64,000 nucleotides of DNA, from the NCBI RefSeq assembly GCF_009674825.1, contig NZ_WKJH01000030.1, positions 434,001 to 498,000 of the forward strand, written 5' to 3'. Made by a program: the position numbers and the translations under genes. Of the stretch, positions 1,258 to 26,014 are shown one piece after another. Numbering within the stretch: the first letter of the stretch is position 1; every line of letters starts with the position of its first letter. The notes beneath the pieces are model-generated. The model made no database searches. It was not told the DNA's origin and saw only the letters and a list, made by a program, of their open reading frames with translations. Source of the DNA: Maribacter luteus. GTDB taxonomy: Bacteria; Bacteroidota; Bacteroidia; Flavobacteriales; Flavobacteriaceae.

Positions 1258-4200
1258 TTATTTGTAATTCTTGCGCTCTATCATGTAGTAAACCAATGGC
1301 ACCACCAAAAGCGTAAGTACTGTCGATACAATGGTACCTCCCATGAGCGAAATGGCCAATCCTTGGAAAATGGGATCGAACAGAATCACGAATGCTCCGA
1401 TAACAACGGTGCCTGCCGTTAGCAAAATCGGGGTTGTACGTACAGCTCCAGCCTCTATAACCGCTTGTTTAATGGGAATACCCTCTGCCAAACGTAGGTT
1501 TACAAAATCGATCAGCAACACGGAGTTCCTTACCATGATACCTGCTAGGGCAATCATACCAATAAAAGAAGTAGCCGTAAAGAAAGCCCCCAATAACCAG
1601 TGTCCCAACACAATACCCACTAAAGAAAGTGGAATGGCCACCATCATTACAACAGGTGCCTTAAAGTTCTGGAACCAACCAACTATCAAAATGTAAATGA
1701 TAACTATAACCCCAAGGAAAGCGATACCCAAATCACGAAACACCTCCAAGGTTATTTGCCATTCACCATCCCATTTTACTGTATAATCATCTTCAAAATC
1801 GGGCTGTTTTATATAAAGTTCGTCTATTGCATAACCTTCGGGAAGGTTCAATTCTTTCAATTTATCTGTCATTCCTAAAATGGCGTATACGGGACTTTCC
1901 AATTCCCCGGCCATATCGGCTAAGACATACACTACCCTTTTCTGGTTCTTTCTATAGATACTTTTCGCCCTTGTAGACTTTTGAACTGCTACCAGGTCCC
2001 CGATAGTAACCATGTTACCTTGTTGTGACTTCACTTTTAATTGAGCTATATCACCAATAGTGGATTTCTCCTTTTCGTCCAAAGCCAAAATCAAACCAAC
2101 TTGGGTCGTGGCATCCTCATCGTACAAATTGGTCACGGCCCTTTCTGACAATGCCATATTCATGGTATGCGCGATTTGTTGTGGCGCAACACCGTACAAC
2201 ATGGCTTTTTCCTTATCAATGATAAATTCATATTCGACATGGTCGGCTTCCACCATCCAATCCACATCTACCACATCATCGGTATTTTTCAGGATATTCT
2301 GAACCTGATTGGCAATATCTATCTGTTTATCATAATCAGGACCATAAATTTCACCCACGATGGTCGACATTACCGGAGGCCCTGGTGGCACCTCTACGAT
2401 TTTGACATTCGCGTTGAATTTTTCACCTATCCGTTGGATCTCTGGTCGCAACAAACTTGCTATGTCATGACTTTGTTCACTTCGTTCCCCTTTATCTATC
2501 AAGTTAACTTGAATATCGGCCATATTACTGCCACCACGTAGATCATAATGACGCACAAGTCCATTAAAAGTGATAGGTGCCGATGTTCCCACATAGGTTT
2601 GATAATTGACCACCTCTGGCCTTGTGGCCAAATATTGGGCTATCTCCTTGGCAACCACTCCGGTTCGTTCCAAAGTCGTTCCCTCGGGCATATCAATGAC
2701 CACCTGAAACTCATTCTTGTTATCAAAAGGCAACATTTTCACCGCTACCGATTTGGTAAAGAACAAGGCCACTGACCCAAGTAATAGAAAGAACGTAATC
2801 CCCAAGAACAACCATCTTTTGCTTTTATTCTCGATCAAAGGTTTTTCAAACTTTTCATACATGCGATAAATAAAAGAATCCTGCATGGGTTTCTCCTCTT
2901 TCGCTTCTTCTCCTTTTTTCTCCTTTTCCCTTAAGAAAATATAACCCAAATAAGGGGTAATCGTCAAAGCAACGAACAACGACAATAACATGGCTATCGA
3001 TGCACCTATAGGCATAGGACTCATATAAGGCCCCATTAATCCTGAAACGAAAGCCATGGGCAATACCGAGGCGATTACCGTAAAAGTTGCTAAAATGGTA
3101 GGGTTACCAACTTCGTTGATTGCATACAAAGCCGCCTGTTTAAACGGCAATCTTTTCATTTTAAAATGCCGGTGCATGTTCTCCGCTATAATAATCGAAT
3201 CGTCGACCACGATACCTGTTACGAAAACCAAGGCAAAAAGCGTGATTCTGTTCAGTGTATAATCGAGCATATAGTAGCTCAATAAAGTCAAAGCAAACGT
3301 AATAGGAACAGATAAGAACACGACCAAACCACCTCGCCAGCCCATTGCCAACATAACCACGAAGGTCACGGCGATTATCGCGCCGATCAAGTGCATCAAT
3401 AGCTCAGACACCTTATGGGAGGCCGTTTCCCCATAGTTCCTTGTCACCTCTAAATGAACATCATCAGGAATCAAGGTCTTTTTCAAATGCTCCACTTTAT
3501 CCAAGATGACATCGGAAATTTTCATGGCATCGGCCCCTTTTCGTTTCGCGACCGAAATGGTTACCGCAGGATATTCCGATTTAAAATCCCCGGCTTTTTC
3601 ACTCGCCTGCCCAAATCCAAGGGACACGTAATTTTTTGGAATTTCAGGTCCGTCCTGAATGCTTGCGATCTGCTTTAGGTAAATAGGCCTATTCTGCTGA
3701 ACACCAACCACTAAATTCTCCACATCTTCCGGAGTTTCAAGAAAATTCCCGGTAGTTACGGTAAACTCCGTATCGTTCTTATCAAAAGACCCACCACCCA
3801 ATTGTTGGTTATTGGCCTTGATCATTTGGGCCACGGTTATAAAATCCAATCCGCTTTCGGCCATCTTTTCCTTATCAAGGACCACCCGTAATTGCCTGTT
3901 TCTACCCCCTATTTTCTGTGTGGCCGAAACATCGTTTATCTTTCCGATCTCATCAGTAAGTTCTTGGGCGATTTGCTTAATTCGGTAGTCGTCATAACTC
4001 TCACTCCACAACGTTAAACCCAACATCGGAACATCATCGATAGAACGTGTTTTTACCAATGGGAAAGTCACTCCCTCTGGCATAACGTCCATATGCTTAT
4101 TGATCTCATTATAGAGTTTTACGAATGAACGTTCAATATCTTCCCCAACGTAGAATTGAACGATTACCATTCCCTGCTCTTTCATCGAAGTTGAATACAC

Positions 4201-7886: not shown

Positions 7887-8342
7887 CTATTGATCATTCT
7901 TTTTCCCGTGTTTTTTTTTCCTCCAACCACTCCAAATGGGAAAACCATTATTATCCCTTAGTTTTAATATATTATCGTTCTTCTCAACTTCTATTACAAC
8001 AATGGCCGGTGCATTTTCAAAGGTTATCCTAGAGCCTGTTATGCGAATTTCATCGCCTTTTTGAAATTGGATATCCTGATTGTCCATATACCAAGTCGGA
8101 CCTAAATGAACGGATATGGTTTCTGTTTCCGTTTTTACTGTCAAAAATAGGCCTTGCGACATTTTGGTATCCTGTACCTTTCTTTCAATCGCTGTAACCG
8201 TACCTACAATGGTTTCGACTGTTTTAGGGTTGTACATTCTACCGTAGTTCGAGTTTTGGCCCCATCCCCTACTTCCTCTTTGGGCCGATAGCATCATGGT
8301 TCCGAGAATAACCAATACCATCGACAGTATTAATTTTTTCAT
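7887..8342 (-). CDS. Secreted OB-fold-like protein of unknown function
   Basis: This 151-residue protein has a signal peptide (LILSMVLVILGTMMLSAQ). An RG-rich stretch is followed by a domain with VETIVGTVTAIERK, SVHLGPTWYMDNQ and KGDEIRITGSRITF. Those segments resemble the small periplasmic OB-fold domains found in NrfJ/MamS-like proteins and near respiratory genes. The tail is Lys/Trp rich (SGWRKKKHGKKND). I do not know its function. It has its own promoter with a class B palindrome (8370-8413), like the sulfide oxidoreductase, ric and fadL genes, which suggests a role in the same response. Confidence 0.6.
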   Translation of the reverse strand: MKKLILSMVLVILGTMMLSAQRGSRGWGQNSNYGRMYNPKTVETIVGTVTAIERKVQDTKMSQGLFLTVKTETETISVHLGPTWYMDNQDIQFQKGDEIRITGSRITFENAPAIVVIEVEKNDNILKLRDNNGFPIWSGWRKKKHGKKNDQ

Positions 8343-8466: not shown

Positions 8467-8572
8467 TAAAAAGCACTCGCCACAAGGCGAATGCTTTTAT
8501 CAACAACCAAACAAAATTGACCAATGGGCAGCGGTCAATTTAAGTTCAAAAAATTGAAATAATCAATTTCAA
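8467..8572 (-). ncRNA. Candidate small RNA 1 (class A controlled)
   Basis: Read on the minus strand, the RNA would start near 8571 with a 7-bp hairpin (TTGAAAT/ATTTCAA, 8554-8572). Next comes a 9-bp hairpin (AAATTGACC/GGTCAATTT, 8514-8541), then an unpaired stretch TTTGTTTGGTTGTTGA (8515-8500). It ends in a 10-bp terminator (8472-8495) followed by TTTTTA. The class A palindrome at 8606-8619 is centred about 41.5 bp before the predicted start, although the -7 box (TCATATTG) is weak. The terminator ends the unit before the promoter of the OB-fold gene, so this is a separate transcript. It shares the 16-nt unpaired stretch with RNA 2. Confidence 0.5.
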
Positions 8573-8605
8573 CTAGCAATATGATGTTAAAAATCGAGCC
8601 CTACT

Positions 8606-8619
8606 GTCACATTTGTTAC
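8606..8619 (-). promoter_or_regulatory. Class A palindrome upstream of small RNA 1
   Basis: GTCACATTTGTTAC matches GTAAC-N4-GTTAC with one change. It lies between the terminator of RNA 2 (8628-8651) and the start of RNA 1, at class II distance from the predicted start near 8571. Confidence 0.55.
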
Positions 8620-8620
8620 A

Positions 8621-8743
8621 CAAAAAAGACCCTGACAAAAATATCAGGGTCCTTTTTCAACAACCAAACAAATCAATGAAAATCAAGGGGGTCATTGATC
8701 AACCCTACGGGTTCCCCCATGGCCACCAGCAACAATGACCAAT
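8621..8743 (-). ncRNA. Candidate small RNA 2 (class B controlled)
   Basis: On the minus strand the RNA would start near 8743 just before GGTCATTG, which pairs with CAATGACC (plus-strand 8733-8740 with 8690-8697). Inside lies a 5-bp GGGTT/AACCC-type hairpin. The unpaired stretch TTTGTTTGGTTGTTGA (8672-8657), identical to RNA 1, follows. An 8-bp terminator (8628-8651) with a run of six T closes the unit. A -7 box TAAGTTTA lies at 8756-8749. The same terminator may also end the sulfide oxidoreductase mRNA, so a 3'-UTR-derived RNA is the alternative. Confidence 0.5.
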
Positions 8744-8779
8744 ATTTTTAAACTTAAGTAGATGAACTTAAAGAATTGA

Positions 8780-8793: not shown

Positions 8794-8844
8794 CATTATA
8801 AATCGTTTTGTCTTTGAAATCCTACGAGTCATTTTATATATATT

Positions 8845-10302
8845 TTATTCTGGAATCAGCCACCAAAATGGCCTCATTTTAGCTTTATACAAAAAGGCGT
8901 GGTGCAAGGCCAATTTTAGCCAATGCCCTGCCAATCCTATTTCCCCAAAGGTTTTACCTAAGCGCCTACCGTAAGTATCCGGGTATTTGTTAAAATCGGG
9001 AACTATAGGGAAGGTCGTTATACTTATACCACTTCCTTTGGTTATTCCATAACCTGAAGATGCTATACAGGCAGCTCCCATATTCCCCATTGAACCTTTA
9101 TGACGCAATGATGGTTTTTTATTATTTATGGTGTCTATGATATTATCCGCCACCAATTTGGCCGTAATACCCGAAGGCATTCCTGTACGGGGTGGCGCTG
9201 GTGAAATGGGCGTACCGTTTTTACTTACCCTAGGTTTGGATATAGCATGAGGCGGGGCAAATGCGATTCCCGGGGCAAAAATATTGGCATATGAAGGATT
9301 TTGATACGTTTCTGGCCAATCCTGTACAGTCCATTCCTCATAAGGCTTGGGTGTATAGTCAGCATCTACGATCATAAAACCCTTGAACAGTTTGTCCGTT
9401 ATATCTTTGTTATTTTTATCATAGGCCTTGAAACCATGTCCTGAAAATGCAGGAATCAACATCGTAAAATCATAGGTTTCCGTATGGTATTCCCCGTCCA
9501 AGGTTTCATAATGGGCAATCCCATCCTCGATTTTATTGACGCCTGCCCCTATTATCCATTTGATTCCCCGATCTTCGAACACCATTTCTACCAACTCGCT
9601 CGATTTCATGATGTTGCTGCCATAACTAAGGAGCATTCCATCCATACCAAAATCACCCAATTGAGGTTCGTTGGCTATCCATGTGAGTTCGGCCATGTCC
9701 CGTACACCATGTCTGTTCAATTCTTGCTCCACATTCAAAATATATTCAAATGCAGCACCTTGGCATGTAGATTTAGCGTGACCGGTCCCAATCAATATTT
9801 TCTTCTTTTTGCCTTGTTTCATCTCTTGGATCAATTGATCCAAAGCATGCCATGCTTCTGTAGCATGGGTATACGTACAAACTGAATAAGCCTTGTTGGT
9901 TGCGGGTTTTAAACCTTCGGTCATATCAAAGGCCAGCTTTGGACCAGTGGCATTTATAAGGTAATCGTAAGTGACCTTTTCCATCGCTCCGACTGTTTCA
10001 CCAGCAACGTATTCCGCAAGGATATAAGGTTTTTCAATCTCAGTATCCCCTTCCGGATGAAAAGTAACCACTTTAGCCTGTTTATATTCTATTCCTTTTT
10101 TCTTGTATAAAGGCGCCAAAGGAAAAATGATGTCTTTTGGTTGCATACGTCCTGTGCCGACCCAAATATTAGAAGGTACCCATTGATAATTACTATTGGG
10201 GGAAACTACGGTTACCGTATGCTTCTTTGATAGTTTTCTGCGTAAATGGGTCGCTGCAACGTGCCCGGAAATACCGGCACCCAAAACAACAATTCTAGAC
10301 AT
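8845..10302 (-). CDS. sqr: Sulfide:quinone oxidoreductase-type flavoprotein
   Basis: This 485-residue enzyme of the flavoprotein disulfide reductase group would oxidise sulfide to persulfide or polysulfide and pass electrons to membrane quinone. The FAD-binding GxGxxG is at the start (VVLGAGISGHVAA). The three redox cysteines of SQR are in their usual contexts: Cys142 in YSVCTYTHA, Cys180 in STCQGAAFEY and Cys412 in GAACIASSGYG. No signal peptide is seen; SQRs bind the membrane peripherally. It is somewhat longer than classical SQRs, so the subtype is open. Two operator sites lie upstream, one of each class. Neighbours include cytochrome bd and, further on, rhodanese and a sulfite-oxidase-type enzyme, which supports a sulfide-oxidising role. 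Confidence 0.8.
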   Translation of the reverse strand: MSRIVVLGAGISGHVAATHLRRKLSKKHTVTVVSPNSNYQWVPSNIWVGTGRMQPKDIIFPLAPLYKKKGIEYKQAKVVTFHPEGDTEIEKPYILAEYVAGETVGAMEKVTYDYLINATGPKLAFDMTEGLKPATNKAYSVCTYTHATEAWHALDQLIQEMKQGKKKKILIGTGHAKSTCQGAAFEYILNVEQELNRHGVRDMAELTWIANEPQLGDFGMDGMLLSYGSNIMKSSELVEMVFEDRGIKWIIGAGVNKIEDGIAHYETLDGEYHTETYDFTMLIPAFSGHGFKAYDKNNKDITDKLFKGFMIVDADYTPKPYEEWTVQDWPETYQNPSYANIFAPGIAFAPPHAISKPRVSKNGTPISPAPPRTGMPSGITAKLVADNIIDTINNKKPSLRHKGSMGNMGAACIASSGYGITKGSGISITTFPIVPDFNKYPDTYGRRLGKTFGEIGLAGHWLKLALHHAFLYKAKMRPFWWLIPE

Positions 10303-23377: not shown

Positions 23378-24397
23378 TTACTTTTTATCAAAAACAATAC
23401 TCCATACGCCCCTTACTTGGTTCTCATTATAGCCAAGGGCTTGATCTTTAGGATAGAAAGCCTTTAATGTACTTAAGGTTTCCCCTGTCACTTTTTCGTT
23501 AGGCACACCATGACACTGAAGGCACATGGTATTCGTGGTTATGGGATAATAAAAATGTACTTCATTATTTATTTCATCTATCATGGGACTGATATCCTTA
23601 CCATCTGCAACCATTTGTTTAAAGGCCGTGATATACCCAAGCTCTTTGGAATTTGCCATATTATCAGGGTTTCTAGGTTTATCGGAAACCCTTTTTATTT
23701 TTGCTCCATGAACCGTTGCCATACTATCGGTTAATTTAATGGCCCTAACGTTACAGAATTCAACAGCACCCACAGTTCCTTTCTTTTCAATTGCCGTTAT
23801 CAGGTTTTTACCTAATTGTGCCTTGGTCGAAAGGGCATATTTCATACCCAAGGCATTATAATCGATAGTATTCTGACCGGTACCCATACGCATTTGTCTA
23901 CCCATTCCGTTACCATTGCCCATTCCCCTTCCCATACCTTGGCCCCTGCCATGGTTCTTTTGATAATGTTCCTCGAACCATTCTGGTTGGTCAATATCGT
24001 TTTCATAAAGATAATCGGCTATGAGTTTTATATCTTCTTTGGGATATGGCAAATAGGGCATTACGCCAAATCGTTGAACGGCTCCCGGCATTTTCGATTT
24101 TTCCAATGTTGGTTTATCGGCCCAATCCAAAAAATCATCTATAAATTCATTCTTGTCCGAAACACCCATTAGGTATCGCATTTTAACAGCGGCCATAGGT
24201 GGTGCCAATCGACTTTCTTCAGGAGTGGTCGCATCATGGCACGCATAACATTTGGTTTCCATGATTTTCTTTCCTGGATGGTCGGAAATCATGGTTGCTG
24301 TTTCGGGGGTGTTGTCTATTGCTGTTGTCTCATTTTTCTTCGAATCCTTGCAACCGATAAACAAGAGGATAATGGCAATATGATATAGTGTTTTCAT
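23378..24397 (-). CDS. Diheme cytochrome c lipoprotein with DUF3365 domain
   Basis: The 339-residue lipoprotein (lipobox LFIGC, Cys16) has a first heme site CYACH (Cys50, Cys53, His54) in a small cytochrome c domain. A Gly/Met/Arg-rich linker follows (about 150-178, repeats of GMGRG/GNGMG). The DUF3365 (Tll0287-like) domain has VEFCNVRAIKLTD, RNPDN and a second heme site CLQCH near residue 299. DUF3365 domains sense redox state or ligands. It overlaps the HMA gene by four bases, in the rhodanese operon, so it may report or transfer electrons from sulfur chemistry. Confidence 0.8.
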   Translation of the reverse strand: MKTLYHIAIILLFIGCKDSKKNETTAIDNTPETATMISDHPGKKIMETKCYACHDATTPEESRLAPPMAAVKMRYLMGVSDKNEFIDDFLDWADKPTLEKSKMPGAVQRFGVMPYLPYPKEDIKLIADYLYENDIDQPEWFEEHYQKNHGRGQGMGRGMGNGNGMGRQMRMGTGQNTIDYNALGMKYALSTKAQLGKNLITAIEKKGTVGAVEFCNVRAIKLTDSMATVHGAKIKRVSDKPRNPDNMANSKELGYITAFKQMVADGKDISPMIDEINNEVHFYYPITTNTMCLQCHGVPNEKVTGETLSTLKAFYPKDQALGYNENQVRGVWSIVFDKK

Positions 24398-24666
24398 TCT
24401 TTCGCCATTTTACCTGTAGCACAACTTACAAAAGATTTTGCCTTAGAAGCCAGGGTGTTTTTACTATCAATGGAAGGATACCCCAAGTGCTGAAGTTTAT
24501 CCTCGACTTTTGAAAGATCATCCGCCGTACCATAGGTAAATGTTACGGAAGAGTCTTCGGGTACAACCGTTACTTCTGAAATATTCTCTAATTCGGACAG
24601 TTTATTGGTAATGGTTCTGGCGCATCCGCCACATTTCAAGTTCTGAACTATAATCGTTTTTTTCAT
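24394..24666 (-). CDS. Heavy-metal-associated (HMA) domain protein
   Basis: This 90-residue protein carries the metal-binding loop LKCGGCARTI (Cys12, Cys15) and the beta-alpha-beta layout of copper chaperones. There is an extra Cys near the end (FVSCATGKM). It lies between rhodanese and the diheme cytochrome and overlaps the latter by four bases. Copper or another soft metal is the likely ligand, and persulfide-related chemistry is possible given the operon. Confidence 0.85.
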   Translation of the reverse strand: MKKTIIVQNLKCGGCARTITNKLSELENISEVTVVPEDSSVTFTYGTADDLSKVEDKLQHLGYPSIDSKNTLASKAKSFVSCATGKMAKE

Positions 24667-25381: not shown

Positions 25382-26014
25382 TTAAATGTTAACCAGCCTA
25401 ATTTGATTTCTATGAAGTTCTATCTCTCCCAAGTTTTCAAGTTTTTTCAATAATCTTGAGATTACAACCCGGGAAGTATGTAATTCATAGGCAATTTGTT
25501 GATGAGTGGTACTGATATCGTTATCATTGGTTACTCTGGCCTTATCCCTTAAATATTTTAAAAGACGATCATCCATCCGCAAGAAAGCAATGCTATCAAT
25601 GGTCTCTAACATCTCATTCAATCTATTGTGGTAGCTAAGAAGAACAAAATTTCGCCAGCTGGTATACTTCGCCAACCACTCCTCCATTTTTTGTATAGGG
25701 ATCATGATCAATTTGGCATTGGTTTCCGCTATCGCCCTGATCTCGCTCTTGGTGTGCCCCATGCAACAGTTGAGGGTCATGGCACAAGTATCGCCATGTT
25801 CCAAGAAATATAACAATAATTCATCGCCATCACCATCCTCACGCAGCACTTTTATGACACCGGAAATCAACAAGGGCATAGACTTTACATATTCGCCGAT
25901 TTCCATGAGTTTATGACCTTCATGAACCTCTCTATATGTTCCTGTCTGGTTAATTTCATTGATTAATTCCTCTTCAAAAATATGTCCGTAATTCGCTTGC
26001 AGTTCTTTAATCAT
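25382..26014 (-). CDS. Crp/Fnr-family transcription regulator, candidate master of the island
   Basis: From the ATG at 26014 (210 residues; a GTG at 26044 would add 10) the protein has a cyclic-nucleotide-type sensor barrel (about 20-115). The C-terminal winged helix contains HQQIAYELHTSRVVISRLLKKLE as its HTH. The sensor holds Cys77, Cys83 and Cys84 (DTCAMTLNCCMGH), which could respond to thiol chemistry or bind a metal. The four-Cys pattern of oxygen-sensing Fnr is absent. It lies amid nine class A palindromes at class II positions and is the only Crp/Fnr gene in the window. No palindrome is found in front of its own gene. Confidence 0.85.
   Translation of the reverse strand: MIKELQANYGHIFEEELINEINQTGTYREVHEGHKLMEIGEYVKSMPLLISGVIKVLREDGDGDELLLYFLEHGDTCAMTLNCCMGHTKSEIRAIAETNAKLIMIPIQKMEEWLAKYTSWRNFVLLSYHNRLNEMLETIDSIAFLRMDDRLLKYLRDKARVTNDNDISTTHQQIAYELHTSRVVISRLLKKLENLGEIELHRNQIRLVNI

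Follow-up and report, generated by a model that had tools for sequence, protein, structure and literature searches.

Two candidate small RNAs with a shared G/U-rich stretch beside an sqr-like gene of Maribacter luteus, and a related motif in Flavobacteriaceae

What is the role of a 16-nucleotide sequence that occurs twice, each time just before a terminator, downstream of an sqr-like gene in Maribacter luteus? The window, that is, the whole stretch of DNA analyzed here, comprises 64,000 nucleotides. A sequence-only reading of it had proposed two tandem, homologous, stand-alone small RNAs on the minus strand, sRNA1 at 8621-8743 and sRNA2 at 8467-8572, each composed of a 5' hairpin, an identical unpaired 16-mer, AAAAG, and a strong terminator.

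The repeated 16-mer and its regulatory setting

A whole-genome scan located exactly two copies of the 16-mer TTTGTTTGGTTGTTGA, at 8672-8657 and 8515-8500 on the minus strand. Both lie within 160 nt of each other, between the sqr-like gene and the gene at 7887-8342, and no copy with one mismatch was found elsewhere in the genome. Each copy is directly followed by AAAAG and then by a strong terminator, at about 8656-8622 (minus) for sRNA1 and 8498-8469 (minus) for sRNA2. The proposed 3' architecture was thus confirmed by exact matching and by terminator calls.

Both RNAs folded better than all of 200 dinucleotide shuffles, with z values of -4.5 for sRNA1 and -7.1 for sRNA2. The 16-mer, described as unpaired, was mostly free in the predicted fold of sRNA2, just downstream of a hairpin at 8514-8541 (minus). 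In the minimum-energy fold of sRNA1, however, its GGUUGUUG part was paired with the upstream CAAUGACC, and in the centroid only partly so. A further stem of sRNA1, stem 3 (8672-8699, minus), pairs 8699-8692 with 8679-8672 and is an alternative to pairing of the 16-mer with approximately 8696-8689. Homology of the two RNAs holds for the 3' module of 16-mer, A-run, and terminator, but the 5' parts have no clear homology.

Judged by its sequence, sRNA2 stands alone, downstream of a palindrome of the Crp/Fnr type, and it is kept in genomes G005, G006, and G008. The palindrome GTAACaaatGTGAC (8606-8619), already suspected upstream of the second RNA, lies between the two RNAs and differs from GTAACnnnnGTTAC by one mismatch. 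It is located 104 nt from the sRNA2 16-mer, likewise in G006; in G005 and G008 it carries two mismatches and lies 165 nt before the sRNA2-type 16-mer. Upstream of the first RNA, for which the sequence-only reading had named a class B palindrome without defining that class, no GTAACnnnnGTTAC-type site with up to two mismatches was present within 300 nt of the 16-mer.

Exact GTAACnnnnGTTAC occurs at 16 sites in the genome, 7 of which fall into 21 kb of the window (7060-27920), including a tandem pair before a TolC/RND operon. The remaining sites of this cluster are near cydA, FadL-like, molybdopterin-oxidoreductase, and rhodanese genes and the 26192/27971 gene pair. Because sites with one mismatch were not enriched genome-wide (131 per strand versus 433 for the reversed pattern), only the clustering of exact sites was used. 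The same stretch contains a Crp/Fnr-family gene (25382-26014) together with Ric/ScdA-like, hemerythrin-PAS, cytochrome bd, and sulfite-oxidase-like genes; much of it is kept in G005, G006, and G008 and part of it in G009 and G010. This agrees with the low-oxygen, NO, and sulfur setting that had been proposed, and a response to low oxygen, NO, or sulfur is the natural reading of the signal behind it.

A small open reading frame overlapping the first RNA

The sqr-like flavoprotein gene (8845-10302, minus) contains a Pyr_redox_2 domain, and its match to the SQR model is far under the cut-off. Twelve nucleotides past its stop codon begins an open reading frame (ORF) of 46 codons, MTRRISKTKRFIMMNPIIQFFKFIYLSLKILVIVAGGHGGTRRVDQ, which extends on the minus strand from the ATG at 8832 to the stop codon at 8694-8692. 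A profile built from six proteins of this kind found a match in 43 of the 299 GTDB family genomes, or in 39 when only the 249 genomes of good quality are counted; the weakest of these 43 matches, in G124, G179, G303, and G219, the last with an internal stop, are doubtful. The pN/pS ratio of 0.139, calculated from 32 sequences, indicates clear selection at the protein level. An sqr gene lies upstream on the same strand in 29 of 30 fetched loci, at a distance of 10 to about 315 nt; at the remaining locus (L063), cydB precedes the small ORF and sqr is absent.

Searches of Pfam, NCBIfam, and PDB returned no match for the small protein, and the open-access literature, judged by titles and abstract starts among the matches listed, yielded no description of a small protein beside sulfide quinone oxidoreductase. 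As far as these database and literature searches show, the microprotein gene is an undescribed gene of a respiratory operon, and its product is perhaps a small subunit of Sqr or of cytochrome bd. The 46-residue protein has one hydrophobic stretch and a C-terminal GGHGGTR.

The ORF changes the picture of sRNA1, which overlaps its codons 30 to 46 and continues into the 3' untranslated region (3'UTR) and the terminator. The hairpin taken to mark the start of sRNA1 lies within the conserved 8832-8692 frame and is therefore coding sequence. Hairpins are predicted in the 5' parts of both units as claimed, but those of sRNA1, including hairpin 1 (8720-8741, minus), belong to the coding sequence of the ORF, and the 5' strand of stem 3 carries its stop codon. 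The proposal of two homologous stand-alone small RNAs is consequently not supported in this form, since sRNA1 overlaps a protein-coding ORF and could be no more than the tail of the sqr mRNA.

Synonymous sites point to a constraint on the RNA in addition to that on the protein. Among six Maribacter ORFs, synonymous divergence was 0.563 through codon 29 versus 0.202 from codon 30 onward (permutation P = 0.002), with the split at codon 30 given by the start of sRNA1 as originally placed; with all splits allowed, the best lay after codon 26, at P = 0.021. When the core was cut at codon 24, values of 0.682 and 0.214 were obtained for Maribacter, compared with 0.738 and 0.698 for 26 sequences from other genera. 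The drop in the overlap is thus about threefold in Maribacter and is absent in the other-genus ORFs. Because this drop is confined to Maribacter, and because copies that have no ORF keep the same RNA (see below), we consider the RNA of sRNA1 itself to be constrained, in line with the earlier reading of this stretch as an RNA.

sRNA1 may represent the processed 3' end of the sqr mRNA, or it may be the product of an internal promoter. It ends at the terminator of the sqr mRNA, as 3'UTR-derived small RNAs do. A possible -7 box of an internal promoter, TAAGTTTA (8756-8749, minus), is weak, with 5 of the 6 specified bases of TAnnTTTG, a flavobacterial consensus taken from PMC9723704. Its spacing agrees with the one given there for a start near 8743, and it is kept in 6 of 6 Maribacter ORFs. 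The proposed start at 8743 is therefore compatible with an internal promoter. Since TAnnTTTG-like matches are common, both processing and an internal promoter are retained as origins of sRNA1.

Copies in Maribacter and a wider motif in the family

Conservation in relatives, which the sequence-only reading had called for, was found in 8 of 12 Maribacter genomes, each carrying one to three copies. No copy was detected in the other four, three of which are less than 85% complete. Ten sRNA1-type copies with the exact 16-mer, from eight genomes, have TTCATTGATTTGTTTGGTTGTTGA in common, and their terminators differ. Because similarity searches and a scan for the 16-mer with at most one mismatch were used to collect the copies, this invariance is partly a selection effect, from which the eight upstream bases are exempt. 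Four genomes have sRNA2-type copies, in which one hairpin and the 16-mer are preserved. In a wider search, 13 of 60 genomes gave matches, a number of the weaker ones extending only over other segments of the query. A third match in the M. luteus genome (L002) was dropped: it spans the unit incompletely, its 16-mer is altered, and a terminator does not directly follow.

Several copies have no ATG-started ORF of this kind. In G010 the gene in front is cydB; in G009, in G007, and for the more diverged copy of G003, it is a COX3-family gene (Pfam was run on the G007 protein). A palindrome of one mismatch lies 118 to 128 nt before the 16-mer in these copies. The G007 copy (L028, about 3050-3110, plus strand) shows an in-frame ATG and possibly a 17-codon remnant of the small protein. 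In G009 the frame is open and the ATG is missing. These features suggest that decay of the ORF was recent or partial in G007 and G009. Copies of the 16-mer with one mismatch are also found behind DUF2202 genes in G006 and G010 (Pfam was run on the G006 protein).

In a structure model of sRNA1 comprising hairpins 1 and 2 and stem 3, 96.9% of cells were paired, compared with 21 to 52% when the model was slid. Only one pair was changed on both sides, and 51 of 500 shuffles did as well; stem 3, moreover, is disrupted in two genomes, G005 and G008. Support from covariation is thus weak, and we do not claim a covariation-proven fold.

Outside Maribacter, the 3'UTR of the same small ORF often bears a TTTTGGTTGGTT-like sequence. 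In 12 of 26 other-genus loci, 10 or more of the 12 bases matched (shuffles gave a mean of 1.6 and a maximum of 7), and the score was below 9 in 11 of the 26. A terminator followed within 35 nt in 13 of 30 family TTTTGGTTGGTT loci, taken one per genome, versus 84 of 1,200 random positions. The 3'UTR in G026 carries an intermediate sequence, TTTTGGTTGGTTGTTGAAAAAG. This intermediate and the shared 3'UTR position suggest that the 16-mer of the window descends from the family motif.

The form TTTTGGTTGGTTAGTT, allowing up to one mismatch, was found 454 times in 149 family genomes, compared with 124 for the reversed control (121 versus 80 genomes). Outside the family, in 192 genomes of the same class, the numbers were 74 and 112. 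There are only a few sites per genome, and many family copies are situated close behind stop codons; the M. luteus genome has one TTTTGGTTGGTTAGTT-type site (L248). For the best match of each of 30 genomes, a terminator directly followed the motif in 25. The sigma-54-like pattern TGGCAY-N4-6-TTG was present 40 to 130 nt upstream in 12 of these 30 loci versus 41 of 2,400 random positions; it should be noted that this pattern was chosen after seeing the sequences, as was the second terminator setting (loop of up to 16). Part of the family motifs may be stand-alone RNAs, since they lie behind such sigma-54-like promoters, and one group appears as a stand-alone RNA with a conserved hairpin box.

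Candidates that combine a GTGGTTACTTT box with a TTTTGGTTGGTTAGTT-type motif before a terminator are L135, L144, L172 (known from a summary only), L175, L177, and L179. Further GTGGTTACTTT-box candidates are L180, L189, L191, L239, L241, and L250, and in most of the GTGGTTACTTT-box candidates the motif is preceded, at a distance of about 90 nt, by a sigma-54-like promoter. At L163 to L166, L195, and L248, the motif flanks or follows a gene family with "FSVFPDGQFDF", the M. luteus member being that in L248.

Candidate targets, alternatives, and precedents

We favor, with slightly better than even confidence, an explanation in which the locus would yield two trans-acting RNAs with a common G/U-rich pairing stretch and a terminator at their 3' ends. 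One of them, sRNA2, would be transcribed on its own, at a length of about 100 nt, upon activation by a Crp/Fnr-type regulator bound at 8606-8619. The other, sRNA1, would arise at the 3' end of the region that comprises cydAB, sqr, and the small ORF, by mRNA processing or from an internal promoter near 8750, which would give the same bases a coding role and an RNA role. Using UUUGUUUGGUUGUUGA, the two RNAs would base-pair with target mRNAs at A/C-rich start regions and reduce their translation when the sulfur/NO/low-oxygen regulon is on. The sequence itself shows the exact repeat, the terminators, the conservation, the protein-level selection on the ORF, the extra constraint on the overlapping RNA, the ORF-less relatives, and the palindrome; transcription, 5' ends, processing, pairing, targets, and the direction of regulation are inferred. 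A G/U-rich pre-terminator stretch that is kept amid changing flanks has the look of a seed of paralogous small RNAs.

Pairing with A/C-rich leaders, as originally suggested, is plausible, but the target tests were negative or weak. Seventeen matches to the 16-mer with two mismatches in the M. luteus genome were checked as target sites, and five of them (L039, L044, L045, L050, and L052) lie 22 to 48 nt before a start codon in the right orientation. With the reversed pattern, 2 of 10 sites were near starts (16 to 18 nt before), so antisense sites in this genome are not clearly more start-proximal than the control. The best duplex with a leader in the window, of -17.8 kcal/mol, was not significant, being reached by 9 of 100 shuffled seeds; its site is inside the coding part and fails in G006, and it was rejected. 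The duplexes of fadL were the most even, and the weakest of them was reached by 2 of 200 shuffles; it is not claimed as a target because its sites differ among species and 16 genes were tested.

A genus-wide search with the antisense 12-mer gave one attractive leader, that of a lipoprotein gene in G008 (L110), whose M. luteus ortholog (L052) has two mismatches. The best conserved candidate is an HMA-domain gene (24394-24666, minus), the leader of which contains, from -27, the sequence AAACAACCAAAU, complementary to the 16-mer. The site holds in two of four species, being present also in G006 (AAACAACCGAACAAAUA) and absent in G005 and G008. Leaders of Flavobacterium psychrophilum have a median length of 24 nt according to PMC9723704, so a site starting at -27 may fall partly outside the mRNA. 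In other genera, AACCAACCAAAA, the complement of the family motif, occurs before start codons at L167 (twice), L159, L162, and L247. Those at L167 and L247 are directly before the starts of genes for secreted- or membrane-type proteins, in G067 and G028. We regard these leader sites as a lead.

The lack of a target in the own-genome and window-leader tests would fit a role in cis, with the G/U stretch serving as a 3'UTR element, such as a protein-binding site, a determinant of RNA stability, or an aid to termination, and having no trans targets. Its position here, always just before a terminator, and the many family copies close behind stop codons would also be expected of such an element. However, there are stand-alone units with no gene in front, namely, sRNA2, the ORF-less copies, and the group behind sigma-54-like promoters, and a motif with few sites per genome is not a general feature of terminators. 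We therefore judge a purely cis-acting element to be rather unlikely, although it is the best of the alternatives.

Considerably less probable is that sRNA1 is no RNA gene at all, that only the small ORF matters, and that sRNA2 is the only small RNA, the RNA-like features of sRNA1 stemming from coding constraint and local duplication. The clear protein-level selection and the clustering of copies near one another are in its favor. Coding constraint would not account for synonymous constraint restricted to the overlap and to Maribacter, for ORF-less copies that keep the RNA, or for a conserved stretch that runs past the stop codon of the ORF. Functionless 3'UTR and terminator sequence made alike by recent duplication or gene conversion would fit copies lying within a few kilobases in each genome, but it is the least credible reading, given a 24-mer that is unchanged while terminators and spacers diverged and the presence of a related motif in the corresponding position outside the genus.

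The favored explanation, of two trans-acting RNAs, was compared with known RNA families. Searches with Rfam 15 gave no match at the gathering threshold in the window or in 16 related loci, in keeping with the earlier remark that no described family with this sequence was known to the reader. Seventeen sub-threshold rows (E values of up to 5, best 0.0017) were all under the gathering score and were treated as chance. FnrS is an enterobacterial, Hfq-dependent, single-copy small RNA for which Rfam holds a model, and that model gave no match at gathering in the window. The present RNAs resemble FnrS in the low-oxygen setting and in the predicted control by a Crp/Fnr-type regulator, and they differ from it in their multiple copies and in that no Hfq was found. 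Hfq (PF17209) had no match in the 99.96%-complete draft genome of M. luteus (control matches in 5 of 14 genomes), nor had RRM_1 (PF00076; control matches in 2 of 14 genomes, one of them a Bacteroides). No description of this RNA was found in the open-access literature, as judged by titles and abstract starts among the matches listed.

The nearest precedent for paralogous small RNAs with a shared seed may be FopS of Bacteroides thetaiotaomicron, as described in PMC11697453. It likewise comprises several paralogous RNAs per genome with a common seed beside the terminator, in a member of the Bacteroidota without Hfq-type control at the center. According to the same paper, the seed is in a mostly single-stranded stretch, one FopS is 3'UTR derived, and the structure was deposited in Rfam. 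In contrast to the stretch just before the terminator seen here, the FopS R1 seed is at the 5' end; FopS also has the RRM protein RbpB as a binding partner and acts on susC leaders, whereas no RRM_1 was found here. Rfp18 and Rfp36 of F. psychrophilum are flavobacterial regulatory RNAs as well (PMC9723704). Rfp36 is listed there behind a sigma-54 (SM4) promoter, which resembles the sigma-54-like setting of some candidate motif RNAs here; unlike the present RNAs, Rfp18 is predicted to pair via its third stem-loop and affects proteases. MalH of Escherichia coli (PMC8081044) derives from the 3' part of an operon transcript and stops at its terminator, as sRNA1 may do; sRNA1 differs in sharing bases with the last codons of a conserved small ORF and in having ORF-less copies.

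RNA-based control in Flavobacteriaceae is poorly mapped. Tentatively, and with somewhat less than even confidence, we propose a family-wide network of small RNAs that would share one G/U-rich pre-terminator pairing sequence (TTTTGGTTGGTTAGTT and variants) and would be made from mRNA 3' ends or as stand-alone sigma-54 RNAs, with no Hfq or RRM helper. In Maribacter, two of these RNAs would have changed their seed and come under a sulfur/NO regulator of the Crp/Fnr type, one being encoded within the last part of a conserved microprotein gene. If this is true, one short motif would mark regulatory RNAs across the family and would provide a probe, candidate promoters, and a testable seed, and the microprotein codons, overlapping an RNA under constraint, would clearly exemplify how a single sequence can have two functions.
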